Shown here piece after piece: positions 27,726 through 44,474 of a stretch of 64,000 nt of DNA. Origin of the DNA: Roseateles sp. XES5 (GTDB lineage: Bacteria; Pseudomonadota; Alphaproteobacteria; Rhizobiales; Rhizobiaceae); NCBI RefSeq assembly GCF_020535545.1, contig NZ_CP084754.1, forward strand, positions 434,001 through 498,000, read 5' to 3'. Numbering within the stretch: the first letter of the stretch is position 1; every line of letters starts with the position of its first letter. A model generated the notes under the pieces. It was not told the origin of the DNA. It worked only from the letters and a program-made list of their open reading frames with translations, and ran no database searches. Both the position numbers and the translations under genes were made by a program.

Positions 27726-28280
27726 TCATTCGCTCCGATAGAGGGCGGCCAGCGATTTCAGCGCCCGGTGGAGGGCGACACGCACGGCGACCTCCGTCAT
27801 CTTCAGTCGCACCGCCGTTTCGCGGATACCGGCCCCTTCGATGGAAATCGAGCGGACGATATCGCGTTGCGGATCCTTCAGCCGCGCCAGAACGGTTTCC
27901 GTATCCAGCCGGTCGGCGGCCTCGTGCGTCTCGTCCCCGGCCTCCAGGAAATCCGCGACATCGTCCAGCGGCACGTTGCCATGCCGGCCGCGGCGACGCA
28001 GGCTGTCGACCAGCTTGTTGCGCACGATGGTCGTCAGCCAGGGACCGAGGGGGCGGGCCGGGTCCCAGGTCCCCCGTTTGAGGTGAATGGCGAGCAGCAC
28101 CTCCTGCACCACGTCCTCCGCCTCGCTTGCCGGCGCGCCGTACTGATCGCAGCGCCGCCTTGCCATGCTGCGAAGATGCGGCGTCACGGCGACCAGGAAA
28201 CGGTTATAGGCCTGCGCGTCGCCCTTCATGGCGAGACGCAGCCAAGCCGCCCATTCCTCTTCGCGTGCCGACTGTTTCAC
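27726..28280 (-). CDS. ECF sigma factor, SigF-like
   Basis: About 184 residues with region 2 (AEDVVQEVLLAIHLKRGTWD, then a LGPWLTTIVRNKLVDSLRR core) and region 4 (IRETAVRLKMTEVAVRVALH), the length and layout of group ECF16/SigF sigma factors. I chose the GTG at 28280 because AGGAG lies 8 bp upstream; an in-frame GTG at 28307 lacks a ribosome site. It is followed 1 bp later by nrsF and is divergent from the bufferin operon. A candidate ECF promoter in front of it matches the one in front of the bufferin precursor gene. Confidence 0.85.
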   Translation of the reverse strand: MKQSAREEEWAAWLRLAMKGDAQAYNRFLVAVTPHLRSMARRRCDQYGAPASEAEDVVQEVLLAIHLKRGTWDPARPLGPWLTTIVRNKLVDSLRRRGRHGNVPLDDVADFLEAGDETHEAADRLDTETVLARLKDPQRDIVRSISIEGAGIRETAVRLKMTEVAVRVALHRALKSLAALYRSE

Positions 28281-28291
28281 TGTTGCAGCTC

Positions 28292-28319
28292 CTACGCCGG
28301 GAGACACGTTTTTGTTACC
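28292..28319 (-). promoter_or_regulatory. Candidate ECF promoter of the sigma/anti-sigma pair
   Basis: Minus-strand GGTAAC-N17-CGTAG. The same spacing and nearly the same elements occur on the plus strand at 28431-28458. The -10 overlaps the AGGAG ribosome site, so a transcript from here would have almost no leader. Either the start codon is used leaderless, or this is a cross-recognised site; hence moderate confidence. Confidence 0.45.
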
Positions 28320-28504: not shown

Positions 28505-28786
28505 ATGAAGACCACGATCGCCACCCTCGCTCTTGCCGGCTCGCTCGCGTCCGCGCTCGCCGCCATCGCCACACCCGCCGCCGCCGATGACGCCAAGGAA
28601 AAGTGCTACGGCATCGCCATGAAGGGTCAGAACGACTGCGCCGCTGGTCCGGGCACGACCTGCGCCGGCACTTCGAAGATCGACTACCAGAAGAATGCCT
28701 TCAAGCTGGTTCCGACGGGCACCTGCGTGTCGATGAAGACCCCGGATGGACACGGCATGCTGGAACAGGGTCCGGCGCCGGCCTGA
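28505..28786 (+). CDS. bufA: Bufferin precursor peptide (DUF2282, BufA1-like)
   Basis: A 93-residue small secreted peptide. It has a Sec signal of about 27 residues ([20 protein letters not shown]..., cut near AAADDAKEK) followed by a core with four cysteines at positions 34, 45, 53 and 74, in the contexts KCYGIA, NDCAAG, TTCAGT and GTCVSM. This is the DUF2282 pattern. In Caulobacter, bufferins of this family are copper-buffering RiPPs whose cysteines are converted to thiooxazole-type groups by the DUF692 enzyme encoded next. The order precursor-DUF692-DUF2063-DoxX is conserved here. Modification and copper binding are by homology only. Confidence 0.85.
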
Positions 28787-28852
28787 CGCATCGCCTCTCA
28801 CACCTACGGCGCCGCTCCGGCGCCGTTGCCCCCTCCTTCGGAAAGGCCCGCC

Positions 28853-29707
28853 ATGTTTCCCTCCACCCTTCCCCGCCGCGCCGGCGTCGGCTTCAAGCCC
28901 GAGCATTTCGTCGATATTCTCGCTGGGCCGCAGCCCGTCGGCTTCTTCGAGGTCCATGCGGAAAACTACATGGGCGCTGGCGGGCCGCCGCATGCCCAGC
29001 TCGGCAAGCTGCGGGAGGATTATGCGCTCTCCATCCATGGCGTCGGGCTTTCCATCGGTTCCATGCAGCCGCTCGACCGCGATCATCTCGCCCGGCTGAA
29101 AACCCTGTGCGACCGCTATCAGCCGGAGAGCTTCTCCGAGCATCTTGCCTGGTCGAGCCATGACAGCGTCTTCCTCAACGACCTCTTGCCATTGCCCTAT
29201 ACCGAGGAAACGCTCGCCCGCGTCACTGACCATATCGACGACGTGCAGACCGCGCTTGGCCGCCGCATGCTGCTCGAAAACCCGGCGACCTATCTGCTCT
29301 TTGCGGAAAGCACGATCGAGGAAACGGCTTTCCTTGCCGAAATCGCCCGGCGCACCGGCTGCGGCCTGCTGCTCGACGTCAACAATGTCTTCGTCGCCGC
29401 GACGAACCACAATCTCGACCCCGACGCCTATATCGCCCGGTTTCCGCTGGAGGCCGTGTGTGAAATCCACCTCAGCGGCCATTGCGAAACCGTGGACGAC
29501 GCCGGCGCCCCGCTCCTCATCGATAGCCACGATACGCCGGTGAAGGATCCGGTCTGGGCGCTCTATCAAGCCGTCCTTGCCCGCCTCGGCCCCGTCGCAA
29601 GCCTCATCGAATGGGACAACGATGTACCCGAATGGCCGGTGCTGCGGGCGGAGGCGGCGGCCGCCCAGCGCATGCTCGATGACGCCGCGCGGCAAAAGGC
29701 GGCCTAA
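28853..29707 (+). CDS. bufB: DUF692 multinuclear non-heme iron oxidative enzyme (BufB-like)
   Basis: 284 residues, a TIM-barrel enzyme of the MNIO family that oxidises cysteine residues in RiPP precursors. The N-terminus [12 protein letters not shown] is diagnostic. Likely iron ligands lie in [40 protein letters not shown] and [11 protein letters not shown]. The ATG at 28853 has a GGAAAGG site upstream; an in-frame TTG at 28826 is discarded. It is followed 3 bp later by its DUF2063 partner. Confidence 0.9.
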
Positions 29708-29710
29708 GCC

Positions 29711-30484
29711 ATGACCACCCAGGACGTGTTCGCCGCACGGCTCTTCGAGACGGCACCGCCGCCGGCCGGGCTGACATCCTGGAACGAAGCCGAGCCCCGG
29801 CGGCGCTACGATATCTACCGCAACAATATCTCGGCAAGCCTCGCGGGCGCCCTCGCCTCACGCTTTCCGGCGGCGGAAAGCATCGTCGGGCAGGACTTCT
29901 TTCGGGCCACGGCCGATGCGTTCATTCGCCTCCATCCGCCACGCTCCCCGGTGCTTCTTGCCTATGGCGAGGATTTCCCGGACTTCGTCGCCGCCTTCGA
30001 GCCGGCGCGCGACCTGCCCTATCTTGCCGACGTGATGCGGCTCGAGGCCGCGCGCGGGCGCGCCTATCATGCGGCCGATGCCCGGCCTCTCGATCCAGCG
30101 GCTTTGGCCGCAGTCGATCCTGCCTGTCTCGGCGCGCTCGTGCTCGTGCCCCATCCCGCCTTCTCGGTCCTTTCCTCGATCCATCCCATGGTGACGATCT
30201 GGGCGATGAATGCCGGCGAGCGCAGTCTCGAGCCCATCGATCCCTGGAAGGACGAACACGCCCTTGTCACCCGTCCGCATCTGACGGTCGAGGTTACGCC
30301 CCTGCCGGCGGCCGATGCCGCCTTCTTCCGCCACCTCGCCGGCGGGGCAAGCCTTGCGGAGGCTGTCGCCGGTGCGGCGGACGATCGTTTCGACCTTTCC
30401 CGAACCCTTGCCGTTCTGCTCCGCTCCGGGGCCTTCACGGCCATCAAGGAGGAGACCAACGATGACGACCGACACGATGCCTGA
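29711..30484 (+). CDS. bufC: DUF2063 partner protein of the MNIO enzyme (BufC-like)
   Basis: 257 residues. It begins with the short helical DUF2063 domain (RRRYDIYRNNISASLAGALASRFPA), sometimes labelled a putative DNA-binding domain. In MNIO systems this protein instead forms a complex with the DUF692 enzyme and helps recruit the precursor. The C-terminal half is RRE-like in position. It starts 3 bp after bufB, and its last 23 bp overlap the DoxX gene, so all three are tightly coupled. Confidence 0.86.
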   Translation: MTTQDVFAARLFETAPPPAGLTSWNEAEPRRRYDIYRNNISASLAGALASRFPAAESIVGQDFFRATADAFIRLHPPRSPVLLAYGEDFPDFVAAFEPARDLPYLADVMRLEAARGRAYHAADARPLDPAALAAVDPACLGALVLVPHPAFSVLSSIHPMVTIWAMNAGERSLEPIDPWKDEHALVTRPHLTVEVTPLPAADAAFFRHLAGGASLAEAVAGAADDRFDLSRTLAVLLRSGAFTAIKEETNDDDRHDA

Positions 30485-30935
30485 ACGCGCCTCCGCCCCG
30501 CGACGGAGCCTTTCCCAACAGGCGCTCGGGGCGCTCGAGCGCATACCGAACGACCTCATTGCGCTGATTGCCCGCCTTTCCATCGCCGCCGTCTTCTGGC
30601 AGTCCGGCCAGACGAAGGTGAACGGCTGGATGCTCTCCGACAACGCGCTCTATCTCTTCGAGAACGAATACAAGCTCCCGCTGGTCGATCCCTGGCTCGC
30701 CGCGCATCCCGCCGCCCTTGCCGAGCACCTCTTCCCGATCCTTCTGGTCATCGGCCTTGCCAGCCGCCTCTCCGCCTTGGCGCTCCTTGGAATGACGCTG
30801 GTCATCGAGGTCTTCGTCTATCCCGACGCCTGGCCCACCCACGGCACCTGGGCTGCCTGCCTGCTGTTCATCACAGCGCGCGGACCGGGCGTGATATCGC
30901 TGGATGCAATGATCGCAAGACGAAGCGGCGGCTAG
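30462..30935 (+). CDS. bufD: DoxX-family membrane protein (BufD-like)
   Basis: 157 residues with four membrane helices and the DoxX features LIARLSIAAVFWQSGQTKVNGW and LLVIGLASRLSALALLGMTLVIEV. DoxX proteins of bufferin operons are thought to support the oxidative maturation or redox environment; the exact role is unsettled. The ATG at 30462 lies inside the end of bufC, preceded by an AAGGAGGAG site, so the 23-bp overlap looks genuine. Confidence 0.85.
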   Translation: MTTDTMPERASAPRRSLSQQALGALERIPNDLIALIARLSIAAVFWQSGQTKVNGWMLSDNALYLFENEYKLPLVDPWLAAHPAALAEHLFPILLVIGLASRLSALALLGMTLVIEVFVYPDAWPTHGTWAACLLFITARGPGVISLDAMIARRSGG

Positions 30936-34389: not shown

Positions 34390-34587
34390 GTCGGCACGAA
34401 TGATGGGTTGCGGCGCATCTTTTTCGAGCGGATCGACAGGAGCGGCGTTTTCCAATCTGCGAACATTCAGCAAATGGTCTTTGATGGCTTGTATTGCCTC
34501 TCGTGGGTTCTTTCCTTGAACCCTTGCCAGACGGGCGACATGCATCGCCATCCGGAGCTCGGCTTCTTCCTTGGAGCGCTGAGGCAT
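34387..34587 (-). CDS. Small orphan protein, paralogue of the 38118-38318 product
   Basis: 66 residues starting MPQRSKEEAELRMAMHVARL. I do not recognise a domain. It aligns with the product at 38118 without gaps over its first 46 residues: both share EAE[LV]R-x2-M-x-VAR[IL]A, then EA[IM]-x-A[IV][KR][DN]HL, predicting two helices. The family therefore exists twice within 4 kb. The stop codon is contributed by RIME copy 3, so the C-terminal tail may have been altered by insertion. An ORF start at 34626 is possible, but this ATG aligns with the paralogue's. Confidence 0.6.
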   Translation of the reverse strand: MPQRSKEEAELRMAMHVARLARVQGKNPREAIQAIKDHLLNVRRLENAAPVDPLEKDAPQPIIRAD

Positions 34588-34924
34588 AACAATAATCCGC
34601 AGGATGAGTCCCGCTGAGACTCGCACTCTTCCCTTAATTGTGTCAAGTCAAGCTGACTTGATCCGCTTGGCATCTGTGTGACTTTTCATATTCGCATGAC
34701 GGAAGAATAGTCTCGTCGGCATGCTGGGGACAGGTGCGGGGAGCGCTCCCGCCAGCGTATGGAATACGCTAGGATGCGGGCAGCACCAACGCCCTCAACC
34801 AAGAAGCGCAAGCGGGAGGGGATCCTGTCTGTTAGACAAAAAAACATAATAAATTTAAGGGTATGCCTATCGAGAGCGTCAAGCTACCAGTGCAACGAAT
34901 AGTCCTTGTATTTGAGATGGTGGA
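34588..34924. promoter_or_regulatory. Intergenic region with two inverted repeats
   Basis: A 337-bp AT-richer gap. It contains TCAAGTC-N5-GACTTGA at 34643-34661 and AGCGTAT-GGA-ATACGCT at 34754-34770, both perfect inverted repeats of operator size. The second lies 154 bp upstream of the HTH gene at 34925. Either could be a binding site of that regulator. No ORF longer than a few tens of codons looks real. Confidence 0.4.
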
Positions 34925-35725
34925 ATGTCCGCGCGCGCCAATTTTGCCGACAACCTGAGACGCCTTTGTCTGACGAAAGGCAGCATCAGCGCGGCTTCGC
35001 GCGAAATGGGCGTCCACAGGGCTCAGCTGGAGAAATATCTCAGCGGCGAGCGCGAGCCGAGCGCCGCCGTCCGCAAGCACATTGCAGAGCATTTCGGCGT
35101 TGACGAGGCGACGCTCTTCCTGCCGCCCGAGCAGTTTACGATCGAACTTCCGAAGCCCAGCAAGATCCAGATCAGTGCCGAAGTGCGAAAAGCCGTGGCG
35201 CCGCTTCTGGACGAGCCTATCGCGTCGATTCCCAAGGGGATCTACCACATATACTTTACCGTCCCGGGCACCCCCGATCAACTTTACATGTCCACCATCG
35301 TTGTAACGCGGGTGGGAAATGCCACTCTGTTCAGGCGGCTGACGGGATGGGGGATAAAGCGGGATACCTATTGGGCGCGCTTTACCGGAGACCATAAAGG
35401 GATCGTCGTCGAACGCCTCAACGTTCTTTCCTTTGTCGCCGCCAATCAGCGCGGCCAGCATGAGCCGACATTGATGCGCTTGCACTGGCTTCCCGTCGCA
35501 TCCCCGCTCCTGGGCGGCCACGCGATGGTCCTGACACATTCCGGGGCATCGTTTTCCGCTGTCGTGATGCAGCCCGTACCGCCGAACACGAAGCTTCGCG
35601 ATGCGATACGGTCAGCACAACCGCGCGCCTCGAACGACCCGACCCTTCCGGTCCTCGTGCGGGAATTCATTCCGGCGATGCGGCGCGAACTCATCGAATG
35701 GATTCGCCGTGACGTCGCGGGATAG
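34925..35725 (+). CDS. XRE-like HTH regulator with an uncharacterised C-terminal domain
   Basis: 266 residues. The N-terminal helix-turn-helix (about 6-60: NLRRLCLTKGSISAASREMG, then HRAQLEKYLSGEREPS) resembles phage-type XRE domains. The remaining 190 residues form an alpha/beta domain I do not recognise, with a sensor-like stretch KGIYHIYFTVPGTPDQLYMS. The G+C content and codon choice are more relaxed than in the core genes nearby, suggesting acquired DNA. It is the only obvious DNA-binding protein near the small-peptide genes that follow. Confidence 0.7.
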   Translation: MSARANFADNLRRLCLTKGSISAASREMGVHRAQLEKYLSGEREPSAAVRKHIAEHFGVDEATLFLPPEQFTIELPKPSKIQISAEVRKAVAPLLDEPIASIPKGIYHIYFTVPGTPDQLYMSTIVVTRVGNATLFRRLTGWGIKRDTYWARFTGDHKGIVVERLNVLSFVAANQRGQHEPTLMRLHWLPVASPLLGGHAMVLTHSGASFSAVVMQPVPPNTKLRDAIRSAQPRASNDPTLPVLVREFIPAMRRELIEWIRRDVAG

Positions 35726-35728
35726 ACC

Positions 35729-35962
35729 TTACTGGGTGTCCGTGCGTTTGCGCCCGGCGAGAAGGTCATCGGCGGCGGCCTTCGCCATGCGCAACATGTA
35801 CTGAAGGTCCGAGGAATCCTCGTCCGCATATTTGGGTATGGCGCCATCGAGGAAGGCCACCAGCGCGCGAAGCTCCATGTTTTGTGCGTCGTCTATACTT
35901 GGCTCGCACTCCACAGGCTTTGCATAACGCCCATACGTCTTTGCCCAATAATCGCCTTCCAT
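35729..35962 (-). CDS. Small orphan protein
   Basis: 77 residues, MEGDYWAKTYGRYAKPVECE at the N-terminus, then a mainly helical acidic segment and a basic tail. I do not recognise it. The ATG at 35962 has GGAGGGAAGCC upstream, a convincing ribosome site, so it is likely expressed. It ends 3 bp from the HTH gene stop on the opposite strand. Confidence 0.5.
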   Translation of the reverse strand: MEGDYWAKTYGRYAKPVECEPSIDDAQNMELRALVAFLDGAIPKYADEDSSDLQYMLRMAKAAADDLLAGRKRTDTQ

Positions 35963-36074
35963 GGCTTCCCTCCACAAAGAGAATCATTTTCACTAAGCAA
36001 TGATTCTAGGCGACGATAAGCCGTTCGCAATTAAATATTTGATAAAGCGCGAGTTAAGTCAGGTATATACATTT

Positions 36075-36103
36075 CTTGCGCCAAAATGGCTCAATATCTA
36101 TTG
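36075..36103 (+). promoter_or_regulatory. Sigma70-type promoter candidate for the peptide/SagB unit
   Basis: CTTGCG-N17-CTATTG matches the rhizobial housekeeping pattern CTTGAC-N17-CTATAT at 8 of 12 positions, in an AT-rich stretch about 105 bp upstream of the peptide ATG. The long leader that results could carry regulation. Confidence 0.45.
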
Positions 36104-36207
36104 TGAAGCACGTAATCTTATATTTCGGCAGTAACACATCATTATCGTTTGCCCGGCAGCATTTCTCTTGCGGCGATTGGTCCGCCCAAGCTTGAAAGAG
36201 GATGACG

Positions 36208-36318
36208 ATGAGCACGAAAGTCACCAAGCCGATTCAGTCGAAGCCGAACCTCTCGGTAGCGCCGGTCAAGACGAACCCGAACTTCGTCACGCCGGGCATG
36301 ATGTATCGCGCCGAATAG
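36208..36318 (+). CDS. 36-residue peptide, candidate RiPP precursor
   Basis: A short gene missed by length-based callers. The peptide begins MSTKVTKPIQSKPNLSVAPV and ends KTNPNFVTPGMMYRAE. It has no cysteine, no signal peptide and no hydrophobic helix; it is rich in Lys, Pro, Asn and Thr and ends in an unusual TPGMMYRAE tail. GAGG lies 6 bp upstream of the ATG. It is followed after 8 bp by a strong hairpin and then, 40 bp from its stop, by a SagB-type oxidoreductase gene on the same strand. This layout (tiny peptide, hairpin, FMN oxidoreductase) is what a RiPP precursor would show, but the peptide family is not one I know. Confidence 0.6.
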   Translation: MSTKVTKPIQSKPNLSVAPVKTNPNFVTPGMMYRAE

Positions 36319-36326
36319 CCTTGGGA

Positions 36327-36352
36327 GGCCCGTCGCTTGAAGGCGACGGGCC
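36327..36352 (+). terminator. Stem-loop between the peptide gene and the SagB-type gene
   Basis: A perfect 10-bp GC-rich stem (GGCCCGTCGC/GCGACGGGCC) with a 6-nt loop TTGAAG. There is no U-tract, so it is probably an mRNA-stabilising or attenuating hairpin that sets a high peptide-to-enzyme ratio rather than a full terminator. It also sits where the ribosome site of the next gene would be. Confidence 0.6.
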
Positions 36353-36358
36353 GCCATC

Positions 36359-37432
36359 ATGCGCATTAGAGCATCTCGAACTCTCGTTTTTCAGCCCGAA
36401 GGGGACAATCTCGTAGCCTGCAACTTTCTGACGAAGAAGGTGTTTGAATGCAGCTACGACCTTCTCGGCTTTCTCCGAAACCTCTCCGACTGGACATCGC
36501 TGAAACGGGTCCGAAGAGCCGTACCAGGCTACTCCCTGGCCGAGCTGCGGCAAACGGTCGATGCTCTTCTTGATATGTCGGTCGTCGTCGAGGAAGGAAG
36601 CGCGCTTGCCGCGCGCGAGCAGGCACTGAACACCCATTGGAGATGGGGCCTTCCCACGGCATTAATGCATTTCACGGTCCAGGATCCGGAATTCCTGTCG
36701 CTCGATCAGGCCGAGGACCTGCAGCGCCGCAAGCTTGCCGCGGATGGCGCAATACGCCTCTACGACGAAAACGATCCTTGCAAGAGTATCGAACTGCCGA
36801 AGGTCGCGGGCATGAATGAACTCCTGAGGCTCATGCAGGAGCGGCGCACCAGACGCCAGGGCAGCTCCCGCGCGGTGCCTCTCTCAATCCTTTCCGAGTG
36901 TCTGTTTGCAGGCATGGGCATCACGGGGGAGACCGAAAACTGCGTCGGAAAGCTTCCACTCGGCATGACGCCGTCCGGCGGCGCGCGCAATCCCTACGAA
37001 GCCTATGTCCTCGTACGCAACGTCGAAGGGCTGGCCCCGGGCATCTACCACTATTCCGCAAAGCAACATTCCCTGGAATGCCGGATGGCCGGCCCCGTTC
37101 CCTCGTTCTCCGAACTGGTCGGAGGACAGGAATGGGCCGACACGATGCCGTGCATGGTGCTACTTTGCGCCAAGATGGATCGCACGATGTGGAAATATGC
37201 CGATGCCAACGCTTACCGTGTCGTCATGATCGAAGCCGGGCATATCGGGCAGAATGTTATGCTGGCCGCGACGCGACATGGTCTTACGGCCTGCCCGACG
37301 GCGGCGCTCCGGCATTCCTGGATTTCAGAACTCCTCGGATGCGAAAATCCAACCCATGCGCCGGTCTACGCATTGACGCTCGGCTACCCGACCGACGTAC
37401 CGGCAACGGGCGCGATGGCTCAATCCCTGTAA
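36359..37432 (+). CDS. SagB/ThcOx-type nitroreductase-fold oxidoreductase
   Basis: 357 residues. The N-terminal 110 residues form a small winged-helix-like or recognition-type domain (NLVACNFLTKKVFECSYDLL). The C-terminal nitroreductase domain (about 150-350) has RRTRRQGSSRAVPLSILSE for FMN phosphate, PSGGARNPYEAYVLVRNVEG and GLAPGIYHYSAKQHSLE, all typical of SagB dehydrogenases that oxidise azolines to azoles in thiazole/oxazole peptides. No YcaO cyclodehydratase is present in the window. The neighbouring 36-residue peptide lacks Cys but has Ser and Thr, so the reaction may differ from azole formation. No clear ribosome site precedes the ATG, suggesting coupling to peptide translation. Confidence 0.8.
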   Translation: MRIRASRTLVFQPEGDNLVACNFLTKKVFECSYDLLGFLRNLSDWTSLKRVRRAVPGYSLAELRQTVDALLDMSVVVEEGSALAAREQALNTHWRWGLPTALMHFTVQDPEFLSLDQAEDLQRRKLAADGAIRLYDENDPCKSIELPKVAGMNELLRLMQERRTRRQGSSRAVPLSILSECLFAGMGITGETENCVGKLPLGMTPSGGARNPYEAYVLVRNVEGLAPGIYHYSAKQHSLECRMAGPVPSFSELVGGQEWADTMPCMVLLCAKMDRTMWKYADANAYRVVMIEAGHIGQNVMLAATRHGLTACPTAALRHSWISELLGCENPTHAPVYALTLGYPTDVPATGAMAQSL

Positions 37433-37510
37433 AGCCTTGCAATGGCCGCATCAGCGATGCGAGGCCCGGGAGGTCGGGAGCGGCTGCCCGCCTGTGAGGC
37501 CGTGCAGCGA

Positions 37511-37969
37511 CTATTCGATGCGGCCAGCTAGGAACTCAAGGGTAAGCCGGTCAGGTTCGCCGGCGAAGAAGCGTTCGAGCGCGCGCCGGAATTGCGCCCC
37601 TCCTCCCGCCCCTGCAGCCTCACTGAACAGCGTCATCGACGAGCGAAACTTCAGATCGTCGGGCGAACTGAAAATCTCATGGGCGGAACGGTCGGGTATA
37701 TCGAGAACCACACGGGTCGCCTGTGCCAATCTGCCTGAAAGCACGGGATGCCGGAGATAGGCTCCAGCCTCTTCGATGGAGCCGAGACCATAGAACGTCG
37801 CAATGGAGGATCGTCCGAGCGCGCGTAGCTGCGGAAAGACGAACCACATCCAGTGGGTTTGCTTGCACCCCGCCCTCAGCTCCGCGAGAACCGCATCGAA
37901 GACAGGATCTTGCGCCTCGACGAAGCGAGAAAGTTCGAAAGGGTCATCCTCTGCCATCATCATCGCCAT
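37511..37969 (-). CDS. DUF1810 family protein
   Basis: 152 residues, the family's normal length, with FVEAQDPVFDAVLAELRAGC near the start, then KQTHWMWFVFPQL and an RHPVLSGRLAQATRVVL block. The conserved His-Trp-Met-Trp-Phe-Phe-Pro-Gln core is a hallmark of this calpastatin-like family, whose function is unknown. Start uncertain: MAMMMAEDD offers several ATGs without a good ribosome site. It is convergent with the SagB-type gene. Confidence 0.8.
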   Translation of the reverse strand: MAMMMAEDDPFELSRFVEAQDPVFDAVLAELRAGCKQTHWMWFVFPQLRALGRSSIATFYGLGSIEEAGAYLRHPVLSGRLAQATRVVLDIPDRSAHEIFSSPDDLKFRSSMTLFSEAAGAGGGAQFRRALERFFAGEPDRLTLEFLAGRIE

Positions 37970-39333: not shown

Positions 39334-40614
39334 CTACCGTTCCTGCATGGCCTCGGTACGCGCCTTGTTGATCGGCTTTAGTAGATACTGCAAAATGGTT
39401 TTGCGACCAGTCATGATATCGACGGACGCGACCATGCCTGGAATAATCGCATGAGATTTGCCGTCGCGGACGATTTCGGATTTTTCCGTCTTCACCTGCG
39501 CAAGATAATAGGTCTCGTTGGATTTCTCGTCGAACAGGGAGTCGGCGGAAACATTCGAGACTTCGCCATGCAGACCGCCGTAGATCGAGAAGTCGAATGC
39601 GGTGATCTTTACCAGCGCAGGCTGTCCGACCCGGATAAAGGCAATGTCCGTCGGAGAAATACGCGCCTCCACGAGCAGCGTATCCGATGTCGGCACCACT
39701 TCGGCAACAACCGTGCCGGGCTGCACATAACCACCGATCGTCGTGATCTCCAGCCGGTTGACCACGCCATCGACAGGCGAGCGCAGGTCGGTGCGCTCTA
39801 CACGGTCGGAAGCCCCGCGGACGGTTTCGTTGACGACCGAGAGATCGGCGAGTGCCTTGGTCTTTTCCGCGAGCGCCTCCTGCTGGAAGGAGAGCATCAG
39901 TTCATCCACCTGAAGCGACGCTTCCTTGATGGCCGCACGAACGCGATCGAGCGATTCTTTCAGCAGCCTCAGTTGTCCGGTCGAATCGGTGAGTTCCTTC
40001 TGCACACGGAGCAGATCGGTTTGCGGCGCCAGCTTGCGCTTGACCAGCGGCTCCAGCAGGCCCACTTCCTTCTCCGAAACGGCGATGTTCTTCTCGAGCC
40101 GGTCGATGTTGACCAAAGCTTCGTCAAGCTCCTTGCGTCGCTGAAGGTGGCGCTCCTGCAGGACCGAAAGCTTGTTCTGGAACGCGTCGCGCCGCGCCTT
40201 TAGCAACTGGGATTCGTTCGCACAGACTTCCGGACTGGTCTTGCTGACCTCGGTCGGGCACGTCATTGGCGAGAGCAGATCGCCGGCCTGCTCCATCTCA
40301 AGACGCGCGATCTGTACGCGCAATGCCCGGGCGCGCGCTTCCAGTTCCCCCAGCGTAGAGGTTGTCGCCGTATCGTCGAGCCTGACGATAAGATCGCCCT
40401 TCTTGACGATCTGGCCGAGTTTGACCGCGATTTCCTGGACGACGCTTGCCTCGCTCGCCTGGATGAGCTGCGTTCGGGAAATCGGGATGACCTTCCCCTG
40501 CCCGCGCGCGATCTCGTCCACTTCCGTGATCGCCGCCCACACGACGAAGAACACGATCAGCAGAGCAACCGAAACGAGGCTCATCCGTGCCCAGAAGGGA
40601 GGAGCATCCGTCAT
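39334..40614 (-). CDS. HlyD-family type I secretion membrane fusion protein
   Basis: A 426-residue periplasmic adaptor. It has one N-terminal membrane helix (ARMSLVSVALLIVFFVVWAA), a lipoyl-like segment (ARGQGKVIPISRTQLIQASE), a long coiled coil (about 90-290) and a C-terminal beta-barrel (GRKTILQYLLKPINKARTEA at the end is the HlyD/LapC closing motif). The start overlaps the ABC gene's stop by 4 bp (ATGA). It links the inner-membrane ABC exporter to the TolC-like protein of the same operon. Confidence 0.88.
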   Translation of the reverse strand: MTDAPPFWARMSLVSVALLIVFFVVWAAITEVDEIARGQGKVIPISRTQLIQASEASVVQEIAVKLGQIVKKGDLIVRLDDTATTSTLGELEARARALRVQIARLEMEQAGDLLSPMTCPTEVSKTSPEVCANESQLLKARRDAFQNKLSVLQERHLQRRKELDEALVNIDRLEKNIAVSEKEVGLLEPLVKRKLAPQTDLLRVQKELTDSTGQLRLLKESLDRVRAAIKEASLQVDELMLSFQQEALAEKTKALADLSVVNETVRGASDRVERTDLRSPVDGVVNRLEITTIGGYVQPGTVVAEVVPTSDTLLVEARISPTDIAFIRVGQPALVKITAFDFSIYGGLHGEVSNVSADSLFDEKSNETYYLAQVKTEKSEIVRDGKSHAIIPGMVASVDIMTGRKTILQYLLKPINKARTEAMQER

Positions 40615-42779
40615 GAGGGTCGGCCTGCTTTTTTCTGCAGTTCTTCAATGACTGCACCCTTTGGCCCGTCTGCGATGACACGACCTCCATCCAGGACGAT
40701 CAGCCTGTCGACAAGCTCAAGCATGCTGTAGCGGTGCGTCGAGATGATAATCGTCGTCTCCGGGCCGAAAGCGCTAGACAGGTTGCTGATCAACCGGCGC
40801 TCCGAGGCAAGGTCCATCGCGCCTGACGGCTCGTCGAGAAAGATGATCTTCGGCTTGGCAAGCAGCAGCCGTGCGATCGCCACCGCCTGGCGCTGGCCAC
40901 CCGAGAGATTGTTGCCACGCTCGCCGACCGGCATATCGTAGCCGCGGGGATGACGCGAAACGAACTCGTCGACCCCGGTGCGGCGTGCCACCTCGATGAT
41001 ATCCGTATCGCTCGCCTCCGGATTGGCCATGAGGAGATTGTCCTTCACGGAGCCGGAAAACAGGTCCGCGGACTGCGAAGCAACGGCAACGGCCGTGCGC
41101 ACCACCGCCGGATGATATTGGCGAATGTCGATGCCATCGATCAGGAGGCTGCCCGCGCTGGGGGGATAGAGCGCCCCCAACAGGCGCCCGATCGTCGTCT
41201 TGCCCGATCCGATGCGGCCGATCACGCCGACGCGCTCGCCCGGCCGAACTGAAAATGTCAGGCCATTAAGAACCTTCTGATCGGAGCCCGGATAGGCGAA
41301 ATCGGTTTGCTGGAAGCTGAATCCGCCTCTTTCGATATCGCGGTTCACGAACCCCGTCGCGCTTGGCAGATCCTCCGGCATCATCATGATCGAGTTCAGG
41401 ATGCGCAACGACAGGAGCGCCTGACGCAGGCGCGCCAGCGTCATGGCGATCTGTCCCATCGGCGCGACCGCACGTCCCGACAGCATGACCGCTGCGATAA
41501 TCGCACCCGAGGACATCCTGCCTTCGGAGAATTCATAGGCGCCGGCGAGAATAATGACCACGGATACGAGCTGCGCGACGAACTGCGTCCAGTTTGCCGC
41601 CGAAGCCGAGAGCTGCTTGATCTCTTCCGATGTCAGAGCCGCCTTCTTGGAGAGCTCGTGCCATCTGCGCAAAAGATTGCGCTCGGCCTTCAGCGACTTG
41701 ACAGTCTCTATCGTTGAAATCGTTTCGACCAGCAACGACTGTTTCATTGAGGATTCGTTCGCCGCGGCCGCCACGCGACGACCGATCCTGTGCTGCGCGA
41801 CAAGGCCGATCGCAAGCGCGAGAAGGAACGCGGCGGCAGGGATGACGACGATCCAACCCGCCACGAGGTAGATGACGATCAGGAACACGAAGACAAAGAT
41901 CGTGTCGATGAGAACGCTGATGGTGTTGGAGGTGAAGAATTCGCGGACAAACTCGTATTGCGTGACGCGGTTCGCATATTCACCCGTCTGCATCGGACGC
42001 GCCGACATGCTCGCGTTCAGGACCTTCTCGAACAGCAAATAGGAAAGCTTGAGATCCGCACGTCGTCCGGCATAATCGATCAAGGCTGCGCGTGCCGTCT
42101 TGAGGACGAGGTCAAAGATCACCGCACCCGAAACGCCGATTGCCAGGACCCAGAGCGTGGCCTTCGCATTGTTCGGCAGAATCCGGTCATAAACGTTCAT
42201 CGTGAAGAGCGGCGAGGTCAGCGCCAGCAGATTGATGAACAGCGCCGCAACGGCGACCTGCGCATAGGACCGCCAGAACGGGATCAGCGCGCTTACCAGC
42301 CAATGCTGGCGGACAATGGCGCCATCCATGCCGTCGACGGCGGATTTCATCGTATCCGCGCTGACGGCGCTAAAGGCAAGGATCGCCTTGACGTCATCCT
42401 TCTCCGGTCGACGCCCCTGCAACTGCGCGCGGAGCGCCTCGATATAGGAAGAACGCCCCGCGTCGTGGATCTCCAGCAACGTTGCCGCGGATCCGTCATG
42501 GAATAGAATGATGGCGGGAAGATCAAAGTTGTCGGCCGCCAGATCGCGCCAGCCAAAAGCGCGCACATCGAGACCGATGCGGTCGCTCAGACGCTGAACG
42601 TCCTCGAAGGATGGAAGGGTCTCATCAAAGGGGACCCCGGAGAACAGAACGACATCGGATCCAGGTCGACCGAGAAAGACCGCGATCCGCTGAAAGGCTG
42701 TTCTGAAAGTTTCCCTGCCGAACGGCATCGGCTCACGAATGTCGAACGCAGTGCCGGCCGCTTCCGGGGTCGGCTTCAT
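40611..42779 (-). CDS. Type I secretion ABC exporter with C39-like domain (LapB/HlyB class)
   Basis: About 722 residues. An N-terminal cytosolic domain (about 1-145) resembles the C39 peptidase-like domain, but no catalytic cysteine is visible in the expected position, so it should bind rather than cleave substrate. Six membrane helices follow (about 160-430), then an ATPase with Walker A GRIGSGKTTIGRLLG, signature NLSGGQRQAVAIARLL and Walker B IIFLDEPSGAMD. That class exports RTX adhesins or bacteriocin-like proteins with uncleaved leaders. Start uncertain among ATG 42779, ATG 42785 and TTG 42794; none has a strong ribosome site. Confidence 0.87.
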   Translation of the reverse strand: MKPTPEAAGTAFDIREPMPFGRETFRTAFQRIAVFLGRPGSDVVLFSGVPFDETLPSFEDVQRLSDRIGLDVRAFGWRDLAADNFDLPAIILFHDGSAATLLEIHDAGRSSYIEALRAQLQGRRPEKDDVKAILAFSAVSADTMKSAVDGMDGAIVRQHWLVSALIPFWRSYAQVAVAALFINLLALTSPLFTMNVYDRILPNNAKATLWVLAIGVSGAVIFDLVLKTARAALIDYAGRRADLKLSYLLFEKVLNASMSARPMQTGEYANRVTQYEFVREFFTSNTISVLIDTIFVFVFLIVIYLVAGWIVVIPAAAFLLALAIGLVAQHRIGRRVAAAANESSMKQSLLVETISTIETVKSLKAERNLLRRWHELSKKAALTSEEIKQLSASAANWTQFVAQLVSVVIILAGAYEFSEGRMSSGAIIAAVMLSGRAVAPMGQIAMTLARLRQALLSLRILNSIMMMPEDLPSATGFVNRDIERGGFSFQQTDFAYPGSDQKVLNGLTFSVRPGERVGVIGRIGSGKTTIGRLLGALYPPSAGSLLIDGIDIRQYHPAVVRTAVAVASQSADLFSGSVKDNLLMANPEASDTDIIEVARRTGVDEFVSRHPRGYDMPVGERGNNLSGGQRQAVAIARLLLAKPKIIFLDEPSGAMDLASERRLISNLSSAFGPETTIIISTHRYSMLELVDRLIVLDGGRVIADGPKGAVIEELQKKAGRPS

Positions 42780-42890
42780 CGCCATCGCCCACAAGATGGC
42801 GACGGCTCGAAGCGCTTTGCCACGACCAGCGAGACGTTCCAGTTCATACCAATCGGTCCGCGTCGAAGCATGCTTGCTGCTTTCGTACGG

Positions 42891-44324
42891 TTACTTCATC
42901 GTCGCCAGGAGATCCAACGGCAGGTCGTTCACTTGCCGCGAAGGCACGCGTCGATAGGTCTCTGCCGGAGCGGTTTCCGGGACATGGAACTCCGCACGCG
43001 CATAGGCTTCGGATTGCTTGGCGGGCGCAAGGTTCATGCTGCTGAGCAGCATGCCGCTGGCTGCCAGAATGCGGTACTCCGCGAAGCGCGCCGCATAGAC
43101 GGCCGTGCGCGAGAGGACATTGACGGTGTAGCGTGAATTCTGCGCGCCCAGGACGTCAAGCAACGAACGGCTGCCGACCGCGAGCTGCTCACGATAGGAC
43201 TTTACCAGGCTGCCGTTTGCAGCGGCCTGTTGTTGCAAGGTCGCGGCAAGCTCGGTTTGGCGAATGCGCCGGTCCCACGAAATACGGACGGCTTCTTCGA
43301 CTTCGCGGTAGCTTTGGTGAAGCACCAGACGCTGCTCGCTGGCGCGACGGATCTGCTCCTGCTCGTTGGCGATATCGATGCCGCCACGGTAGAGATTCCA
43401 CTTTGCAACGACACGCGCCTGAAGGCTGGTGCTGCGGCCGTCGCTTCCATCGATGTCCATGCCGGTGCGGGCGCGGCCTTCAAGCGATACGGTCGGCAAC
43501 ATGTCCGAACGCGCGGCCTTCACCATCGCGTCCGCCGCATCGATATCGGAGTTCGCGACTTTGATGCGCGCATTGTTCGCGCGGGCCAGACCGATGGCCT
43601 CGTCGAGGGATTTCGGCAGGGCCGCCGCCATGGAACCGGGCATCGTCGCATTGGAGAACGGCTTGCCAACGAGACGGAGGAACCGCGTCTTTGCGGCTTC
43701 CAGCTCTTCCTCGGCTTGCTTGATGCGCACCTTGGCAGCGAGCAGACGCTCCTCTGCCTGTTGGCGGTCGGCATCCGTCAAGGTGCCGCCGGAGATCAGC
43801 GAATTGATATCGCCGAGCATCTGCTGGTGAACCGCCGCGTTGTTGCGCGATTCCTTGACGATTTCGCCCTGAAGCATGATTTCGAGATATTCACGCACGA
43901 CCTGAAGACCGATCGTTTCGGAGCGCTCGAGAACACGGAACGAGGCGCTGTCGACGCGGGCGGCCTGGCGCTCCAGCTCGGCCCGGCGCGCACCGCCGTC
44001 AAAAAGCTTCTGCGTTATGGAAAGACCGACATCCGCGGGATAGAGCGGGTCATCGTCGAGACCGCCGAGACGACGGGACGGATTGTCGAGATCCTGAATG
44101 CCGGCACCGGCTTCCAGATCGATGCTGGGCAGATAAAGGCCCCGCGCCTGGCGAAGTTCGAATTCGATCGCTTCGCGATTTTCCATCGCCTGCCCGATTT
44201 CAGGATTGGACTCCAGCGTTACCGCCATCGCCTCCTTCAATGTCAGGGCATGTGCGTTGAGCGGCAAGAAGGCCACCCCTAACAACAGCGCTGCCGAAAC
44301 AGCTCCGATTACCGATTTGCGCAT
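42891..44324 (-). CDS. TolC-family outer-membrane channel of the type I system
   Basis: 477 residues with a signal peptide (MRKSVIGAVSAALLLGVAFL, cut near AHALTLKEA) and the repeated TolC helix pattern (LTLKEAMAVTLESNPEIGQA; AYNQ-like REQLAVGSRSLLDVLGAQNS). ATG 44324 has a GGGGGC-rich site; an in-frame upstream ATG at 44354 is discarded. It is the first gene of the four-gene secretion operon, a LapE/AggA-like position. No RTX substrate gene is next to it. Confidence 0.87.
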   Translation of the reverse strand: MRKSVIGAVSAALLLGVAFLPLNAHALTLKEAMAVTLESNPEIGQAMENREAIEFELRQARGLYLPSIDLEAGAGIQDLDNPSRRLGGLDDDPLYPADVGLSITQKLFDGGARRAELERQAARVDSASFRVLERSETIGLQVVREYLEIMLQGEIVKESRNNAAVHQQMLGDINSLISGGTLTDADRQQAEERLLAAKVRIKQAEEELEAAKTRFLRLVGKPFSNATMPGSMAAALPKSLDEAIGLARANNARIKVANSDIDAADAMVKAARSDMLPTVSLEGRARTGMDIDGSDGRSTSLQARVVAKWNLYRGGIDIANEQEQIRRASEQRLVLHQSYREVEEAVRISWDRRIRQTELAATLQQQAAANGSLVKSYREQLAVGSRSLLDVLGAQNSRYTVNVLSRTAVYAARFAEYRILAASGMLLSSMNLAPAKQSEAYARAEFHVPETAPAETYRRVPSRQVNDLPLDLLATMK

Positions 44325-44474
44325 GCCCCCAACCCCACTCAACACGCGCCGCATGCAAGGCCCTCATGCAATCGGCAGCGAAAATTCACTCTTCTGGAGA
44401 GTAAGCAGGCCCCGCTATGCGCATCAATCAGCGAGAGGGAAAATATCAGTAAAATACAATATTATACACAACTC

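Follow-up and report, generated by a model that had tools for sequence, protein, structure and literature searches.

In this work, we have followed up, by comparative sequence analysis, an initial annotation of a 64,000-nucleotide stretch of DNA from Roseateles sp. XES5 (the window: the whole stretch analysed, G000:C3:434001-498000, in a genome of 5.81 Mb and six contigs). Our results show that a gene for a 36-residue peptide, the gene for a SagB-type flavin mononucleotide (FMN) oxidoreductase that follows it and an upstream gene for an XRE-type regulator form a three-gene cassette, present mostly in Hyphomicrobiales. The peptide and the enzyme are very probably a substrate–enzyme pair of the type that gives ribosomally synthesized and post-translationally modified peptides (RiPPs). 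The initial annotation had described peptide and enzyme genes as a two-gene unit; the pair is indeed conserved, but the unit also includes the regulator. As far as we searched (open-licence PubMed Central), the cassette is undescribed, and no paper on it was among the matches listed. Its elements in the window are the following.

34925..35725, + strand: gene for an XRE-type helix-turn-helix (HTH) regulator of 266 residues, third member of the cassette (HTH_3; homologue in 63/76 loci).
36197..36201, + strand: Shine-Dalgarno-like AGAGG of the peptide gene, seen in the sequence six bases 5΄ of the ATG.
36208..36318, + strand: gene for the probable 36-residue precursor peptide, MSTKVTKPIQSKPNLSVAPVKTNPNFVTPGMMYRAE, an open reading frame (ORF) of 36 codons plus stop, conserved 5΄ of the enzyme gene and under purifying selection in relatives.
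36283..36285, + strand: codon for Phe26, the residue at position -11 and an alternative candidate for the target (aromatic in 21/33 distinct peptides).
36304..36306, + strand: codon for Tyr33, the residue at position -4 and our first candidate for the target (aromatic in 30/33 distinct peptides).
36327..36352, + strand: hairpin separating the peptide and enzyme genes (folding energy; z < -2 in 27/33 loci).
36359..37432, + strand: gene for the SagB-type FMN oxidoreductase of 357 residues (PF00881; TIGR03605 above cut-off; TIGR04511 below cut-off).
36359..36643, + strand: N-terminal domain of the enzyme (residues 1-95), proposed from architecture only to bind the peptide in the manner of a RiPP recognition element (RRE).
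36836..37387, + strand: nitroreductase domain (residues 160-343; PF00881).
37190..37198, + strand: Trp278-Lys279-Tyr280, invariant in the family (51 aligned rows).

The peptide and the enzyme co-occur beyond chance. We searched 297 genomes of the window's own family (Rhizobiaceae), counting enzyme matches at E <= 0.001, and found the enzyme in 24 of them: 17 strong matches (E <= 5.3e-81, the window's own genome included, where it is the only match at that threshold and hence single-copy), one at 37% identity (G263) and six weak ones. All 17 strong-enzyme genomes carry, directly 5΄ of the enzyme gene, a small ORF whose C-terminus follows a similar pattern. When the same 297 genomes were scanned in six frames with a peptide alignment of 28 rows, matches at E <= 0.002 came from 17 genomes, exactly those with a strong enzyme, and 34 other family genomes gave matches at E 0.029 to 0.98 only; this alignment holds peptides of several cassette species, so that the independent part of the co-occurrence is the absence from the other 280 genomes. 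At the order level, the peptide is present in all 13 loci with a strong enzyme (12 at E <= 0.014, and L123 at E 1.6 and by eye), several of these loci being genomes or species counted already.

A second collection of 76 loci came from a scan of named genome contigs (isolates and metagenome-assembled genomes) with an alignment as query; the same type of scan with a single enzyme protein as query gave no matches. When a profile of 33 distinct peptides, 31 of them from the 76 loci themselves, was compared with the 15,770 small ORFs of these loci, 65 loci were matched, always directly 5΄ of the enzyme and on the same strand, by ORFs of 25-42 residues, and no match at E <= 1 was obtained elsewhere among these ORFs. 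In held-out tests, a profile of 22 peptides recovered 10/10 held-out loci and nothing elsewhere, and a profile of 11 peptides recovered 6/21, with one match elsewhere at E <= 1. The initial annotation had held that the pair would be coincidental if homologous loci lacked a small ORF or if the peptide frame showed no purifying selection. The small ORF is there in 65 of the 76 loci; of the other 11, two (L096 and L102) are cut by the contig edge and the nine uncut ones have a different precursor-like ORF nearby, judged by eye apart from the repeats. The peptide gene is also under purifying selection, and the pair has withstood both tests. Across 32 loci of Mesorhizobium, with 29 distinct sequences that encode 20 distinct peptides, the proportions of synonymous (pS) and non-synonymous (pN) differences are 0.20 and 0.047, with a dN/dS of about 0.21, while of the shifted frames one shows pN > pS and the other contains stops; in four Rhizobium-group loci pS is 0.39 and pN 0.048. 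A short, probable precursor gene adjoins the gene for the proposed modifying enzyme and is conserved with it, as in RiPP pathways in general (65/76 loci; 17/297 genomes; selection).

Where could the enzyme act? Counting positions from the C-terminus over the 33 distinct peptides, conservation within the core is highest at a position held by an aromatic residue, F or Y. The raw counts per column are F in 18 at -11, G in 25 at -7, M in 13 at -6, F/Y in 28 at -4, N/D in 24 at -3 and K in 26 at -2. Two peptides with the ending FSR lack one residue and, once these are shifted accordingly, an aromatic residue stands at -4 in 30/33 and at -11 in 21/33, with at least one of the two positions aromatic in 33/33; the N-terminal half of the peptide shows large sequence drift. 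We propose that the product of the 36-residue gene is a precursor peptide made on the ribosome, and that no dedicated enzyme other than the SagB-type one modifies it. We infer that the leader (about residues 1-22, with NLSV at 14-17) would dock onto the N-terminal domain of the enzyme, that the C-terminal core would enter the FMN site, and that two hydrogens would be removed from the C-alpha and C-beta of Tyr33 (-4) or Phe26 (-11) to leave dehydro-Tyr or dehydro-Phe; likewise that the hairpin would limit read-through and so give more peptide than enzyme, and that the XRE regulator would control the cassette and may sense its product. Taken as a whole, this explanation is one that we slightly favour, and its central step, the dehydrogenation of a conserved aromatic residue, is our best single guess, with an even chance or a little better of being right. 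The initial annotation had suggested an oxidation of another kind, with Met, Tyr and the backbone as examples of its site; a different oxidation fits the lack of a detectable YcaO in 10/17 cassette genomes and the aromatic residue in 30/33 peptides. Met is not conserved, standing at -6 in 13/33.

The peptide could also be a RiPP substrate that is oxidized elsewhere, at the Asn/Asp of -3, the variable residue of -5 (often H, C, Y or M), the Gly of -7 or the C-terminus, or that undergoes another reaction. The columns at -7, -3 and -2 (G in 25/33, N/D in 24/33 and K in 26/33) are conserved like the aromatic one and fit such a site, but the subgroup of the window has R-A, R-I or R-P at -3/-2, and the nearest enzyme domain of this kind with published chemistry makes dehydrophenylalanine; we consider this alternative rather unlikely.

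SagB-type oxidases are commonly read as azole-forming. SagB, McbC and ThcOx, azoline oxidases of thiazole/oxazole-modified microcin (TOMM) and cyanobactin pathways, share with the window enzyme the FMN nitroreductase domain, and the window enzyme lies above the TIGR03605 cut-off, but these oxidases act on azolines that a YcaO-type cyclodehydratase makes on Cys/Ser/Thr, and neither the cyclodehydratase nor the residues are conserved in our cassette. As the initial annotation stated, there is no YcaO at the locus, none having been found among the ORFs searched or inspected around the cassette, and none is conserved beside it among the clustered neighbours of the 76 loci. The YcaO domain (PF02624) is present in 7 of the 17 cassette genomes and was not found in the other 10, nor in 7 of the 14 cassette genomes of good quality. 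The 33 peptides contain no conserved Cys, Ser or Thr column; Cys occurs in 5/33, and 22/33 have at least one C, S or T among the 12 C-terminal residues. Azole formation by the cassette is unlikely because no YcaO was found in 10/17 cassette genomes and no Cys/Ser/Thr column is conserved, and of two features of TOMMs and linear azole peptides, a YcaO in the pathway and Cys/Ser/Thr core sites, neither is conserved with the cassette. An azole pathway could still work in trans if a distant YcaO made azolines on the peptide for the enzyme to oxidize: the enzyme passes the SagB domain model and retains the Lys-Tyr pair, and the window genome has a single YcaO, on another contig among other genes. 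Set against the cassette genomes in which no YcaO was found, good-quality ones included, and the scarcity of Cys in the peptides, this alternative is very improbable. As a separate observation, the lone YcaO of the window genome (L106, G000:C1:1013000-1025000) lies near an ABC transporter ORF and the end of an ORF that resembles a nitroreductase by eye, and may perhaps belong to an azole pathway of its own.

The assignment of the enzyme to the SagB-type FMN oxidoreductases holds. PF00881 (69.7 bits) is its only Pfam domain, with no MNIO fusion, and the protein scores 101.3 bits against a cut-off of 78.4 for TIGR03605 (SagB domain) and 143.5 against a cut-off of 240 for TIGR04511. Trp278-Lys279-Tyr280 is invariant in 51/51 aligned rows, and the Lys-Tyr pair (here Lys279-Tyr280) has a catalytic role in McbC-type enzymes. 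The putative peptide modification systems of TIGR04510/TIGR04511 also contain SagB-related dehydrogenases, and 51/51 aligned enzymes match TIGR04511; they differ in that the window enzyme falls below the cut-off of that model and in that the TIGR04510 cyclase, which lies beside true members (L175), was not seen near the cassette. The enzyme-family profile gave 140.9 bits with the PflD-like nitroreductase domain of a pfl-type cluster (L172), and the same alignment, in a second search with different settings, gave 126.6 bits with 3eo7, 80.3 with ThcOx, 52.9 with BmdC and 46.9 with McbC among solved structures. The window enzyme and the L172 domain are 36% identical over 177 residues (BLASTP 95.9 bits). 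Judged by sequence, the enzyme is kin to the PflD-like nitroreductase domain without belonging to the same subfamily. In a tree of 37 enzymes, the 20 rows with tiny peptides form one group (94/99) surrounded by the repeat and long-leader types; 12 of the 34 inner branches of this tree are poorly supported and the PflD-like row sits on a very long branch.

The N-terminal domain gave weak matches only, some of them to winged-helix proteins, when compared with Pfam and, as an alignment, with PDB, and these matches, none of them significant, did not support its assignment as an RRE by sequence. We propose, by analogy of architecture only, that it is a peptide-binding, RRE-like domain. BmdC, the oxidase of the bacillamide non-ribosomal peptide synthetase (NRPS), is described in excerpts of its paper (PMC8795117), as are the other published systems below in excerpts of theirs, as an RRE-like domain of 96 residues, then a wrapping loop of 45 residues and an oxidase domain, and the window enzyme matches it in length and domain order. 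Similarly, in ThcOx two peptide-clamp domains precede the oxidase domain (PMC5108345). In contrast to the proposed peptide substrate, that of BmdC is an NRPS-bound thiazoline, and BmdC scores 52.9 bits with our family profile; its authors suggest that it originated from a RiPP cluster (PMC8795117).

The closest parallel in chemistry is found in the pfl and pos clusters of Pseudomonas, in which a nitroreductase domain of the SagB kind acts on a RiPP precursor without a YcaO (PMC12636437). In the pfl cluster, the PflD domain makes Z-dehydrophenylalanine, and the authors suggest in the same excerpts that further dehydro-amino acids could arise through nitroreductases of this type; they call nitroreductases in RiPP clusters without YcaO rare and functionally uncharacterised (PMC12636437). 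The differences are considerable. PflD is fused to an MNIO and, as described in those excerpts, has no comparable N-terminal domain, and the clusters contain a HEXXH enzyme, a GNAT, transporters and a long NHLP-type precursor (PMC12636437), whereas the window cassette consists of one enzyme, a peptide of about 30 residues and a regulator. The pfl-type cluster of L172 has an ORF ending in AAIFDQQQQIQARMD, a 384-residue ORF with no Pfam match at the place expected for the HEXXH enzyme, and a PF05114-PF00881 fusion. The IFDT of PosA resembles the cores IVFST, IVFAT and MLWAT around the aromatic residue, a resemblance and not a test. Pseudomonas sp. Os17 is described as having a SagB-type gene and a small precursor, with no sagC or sagD homologues in the excerpts of the paper (PMC7726476); this OS3 cluster is the pos cluster of PMC12636437, and differs from our cassette in its 85-residue precursor, GNAT, peptidase-like gene and efflux genes (PMC7726476). 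A literature search on indigoidine oxidase domains found nothing.

Enzymes related to that of the window also stand beside other precursors. Tandem-core ORFs lie just 5΄ of the enzyme in L087 (RIVFSTG five times), L094 (RIVFATG four times), L092 (RMLWATG three times) and L097 (RMPYC twice); three of these four loci are titled Caulobacteraceae, and a cytochrome P450 is encoded further upstream in L087 and L094 by Pfam and in L097 by eye. These four loci, which combine tandem cores with a SagB-type enzyme and in three cases with a P450, are a candidate separate RiPP family. Three in-frame SPFVAA units remain in the edge-cut L102. The enzyme of G263 (36-37% identity) follows an ORF in which AMHHP units recur and the tail is aromatic: in L177 (5048-7083, - strand), taken from that genome, an ORF of 282 residues lies just before the SagB-type gene, repeats the unit AMHHPGTAMHHPAVAMHHSGAVDRGWGP and has AYIAPYFAYPYYPYGY as its tail. 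In L084, L095 and the plasmid records L025 and L028, the upstream ORF has about 105-117 residues and a short tail, and is a candidate long-leader precursor (L025 5540-5881, on pTi6.2 of Rhizobium rhododendri; L084 7667-7984; L095 7603-7956). These ORFs are common to Rhizobium plasmids and Bacteroidota and match no family above its cut-off; in L093 an ORF of similar appearance is found downstream of the enzyme. Finally, in two Bacteroidota clusters with SagB-type and radical SAM proteins (L104 8001-11018 and L101 7493-9930), the latter protein accompanies a short upstream ORF with a Gly-Gly pair, and L104 also has a PF02441 flavoprotein; the candidate precursors end in Cys in L104 and in Cys-Asn in L101.

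The perfect 10-bp hairpin reported in the initial annotation between the two genes was recovered, and it proved to be a general feature of these loci. Its arms, GGCCCGTCGC/GCGACGGGCC, lie at 36327-36336/36343-36352, and the 50 nucleotides 3΄ of the peptide stop fold in the window with a minimum free energy of -27.6, the mean for shuffled sequences being -17.3 (z -3.85). In the same region z is below -2 in 27/33 loci (median -4.1), against 6/32 for control regions after the enzyme stop and 3/32 within the enzyme. Among the exceptions, L077, L079 and L086 have a hairpin that is not distinct from GC-rich surroundings, L073 and L100 have it further downstream, and L064 has an intergenic gap of only 10 nucleotides. 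Some loci (L070, L076 and L083) add a T-run, which the window does not have. The hairpin suits partial termination or protection of a transcript end, either of which would give more precursor than enzyme, and is not proof of them. The other signals at the locus bear out the initial annotation in part. The peptide gene has its own ribosome site (the AGAGG at 36197-36201), which an alternative in-frame ATG at 36202, a less likely start than 36208, touches directly, and no Shine-Dalgarno-like sequence precedes the ATG of the enzyme (36359), for which no clear site had been claimed. The promoter-like element placed near 36075 was not recovered, a sigma-70 consensus scan of the + strand of 34500-37600 giving no promoter, with the limit that rhizobial promoters may deviate from that consensus. 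An 8-bp inverted repeat that would pair the 3΄ end of the peptide gene with the enzyme start codon was rejected as not conserved: pairing of at least 7 bases occurs in 1/65 loci, and the mean is 4.4 against 3.8 expected.

This arrangement raises the question of whether the ORF might instead be a cis-acting leader, whose nascent chain would stall the ribosome near the stop and so govern the hairpin and the expression of an oxidase with a different substrate. The ORF is upstream and on the same strand in 65/65 found loci and is never duplicated, its conserved residues are anchored to the stop codon, and a strong hairpin lies past the stop in most loci (z < -2 in 27/33). A RiPP operon would, however, give the same cis arrangement and RNA structure, the enzyme belongs to a peptide-oxidase family, and stalling leaves unexplained the tandem-core or long ORFs found at the same place beside related enzymes. 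Repeated cores of this sort are characteristic of RiPP precursors and would be out of place in a regulatory leader. L088, which keeps the peptide with the HTH gene on the other side, bears on the regulator only. We regard a cis-acting leader as improbable.

Another role for the peptide would be that of a small subunit or activator of the oxidase, like the B protein of cyclodipeptide oxidases, the substrate then being something else. AlbAB, a nitroreductase-fold FMN enzyme like ours, dehydrogenates the C-alpha/C-beta of Phe and Leu residues, and its second subunit completes the FMN site (PMC11055893); the strict one-to-one co-occurrence in 17 of 297 genomes would fit such a partnership. The reaction of AlbAB also speaks for the dehydrogenation that we propose, as a precedent from another enzyme of the nitroreductase fold. 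AlbAB differs, in the excerpts of that paper, in its small cyclic dipeptide substrate, its separate B subunit and the lack of a peptide-binding domain (PMC11055893). The hairpin, which suggests unequal expression, the tandem-core precursors beside related enzymes and the large drift in the N-terminal half of the peptide all speak against a subunit, a role to which we assign a decidedly low probability.

The third member of the cassette is the XRE-type regulator, whose HTH_3 match is just above cut-off. An HTH homologue is present in 63/76 loci, in 62 of them upstream and on the same strand as the enzyme; in L088 it lies downstream on the opposite strand. The 13 loci without it are L055, L096 and L102, all three cut short, together with L103 and nine others, all from among the distant loci. 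A profile of the HTH proteins matches solved structures across the HTH part only, and its C-terminal domain has no match to a solved structure; we suggest that the regulator may control the cassette and may sense its product. When neighbouring ORFs were clustered by sequence, up to 8 kb per side where the contig allows, only the enzyme and the XRE-type HTH gene were found across lineages at a fixed position; many other neighbour families are shared inside Mesorhizobium only, and two larger clusters occur at scattered positions. Both enzyme and peptide are absent from the four further genomes of the window's genus that the sample contains, so that the cassette is accessory in this genus. Several neighbours were rejected as cassette parts, namely an ORF of 82 residues on the minus strand (35729-35977), for which the 76 loci gave no homologue at E <= 0.01, and the flanking DUF1810, RHH, LuxR-type and CoA-transferase-type genes (0/76 loci each at E <= 1e-5). 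An anti-phage function was likewise rejected, PADLOC having given a weak HTH match alone (E 0.036). Two other sets of genes in the window were observed. A second RiPP cluster, of the bufferin type, lies at 28505-30935 (+), with a sigma factor at 27726-28307 (-); it includes a Cys-containing 93-residue ORF with a signal-like N-terminus (28505-28786), an MNIO_BufB protein (387.6 against a cut-off of 310), and HvfC-like and HvfX-like proteins below their cut-offs. A complete-looking type I secretion set (HlyD, ABC and TolC families, all above cut-offs) lies on the strand opposite to the cassette, at 39334-44354 (-) and 2-7 kb further downstream, with no sign of belonging to it.

Several observations count against the proposed dehydrogenation of a conserved aromatic residue of a RiPP precursor. 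No product of the cassette is known, and no exporter or protease is conserved with it among the clustered neighbours. The N-terminal domain is without a significant match to a known peptide-binding domain (Pfam and PDB profiles). The best-scoring solved relative of the enzyme is 3eo7, a putative nitroreductase (126.6 bits), and the PflD-like domain remains distant (36% over 177 residues). Leu replaces the aromatic residue at -4 in 3/33 peptides, and dehydrogenation leaves unexplained why positions -3 and -2 are conserved about equally to the aromatic one. In G263 the tandem cores consist of AMHHP repeats, and aromatic residues occur mainly in the final segment. The mutant in the SagB-type gene of Os17 showed no shift in precursor mobility, and the authors state that a change of -2 Da would not be visible (PMC7726476).

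What does the cassette mean for the bacteria that carry it? A bolder reading, which we put forward as tentative and on the whole doubtful, is that of a new RiPP class with one enzyme, which would use its own peptide-binding domain and no YcaO or partner to make dehydro-Tyr/Phe; the regulator would read the finished peptide, so that the cassette would be a self-contained signal of Hyphomicrobiales, and sister systems would use tandem cores, partly with a P450. The loci described here are a large, clean set of YcaO-less nitroreductase loci in rhizobia and their relatives, in which only precursor, enzyme and regulator are widely conserved. The cassette names a likely substrate for a whole branch of the SagB-type family, a branch that extends to tandem-core precursors with comparable cores, and it may couple a modified peptide of small size with a regulator of its own.

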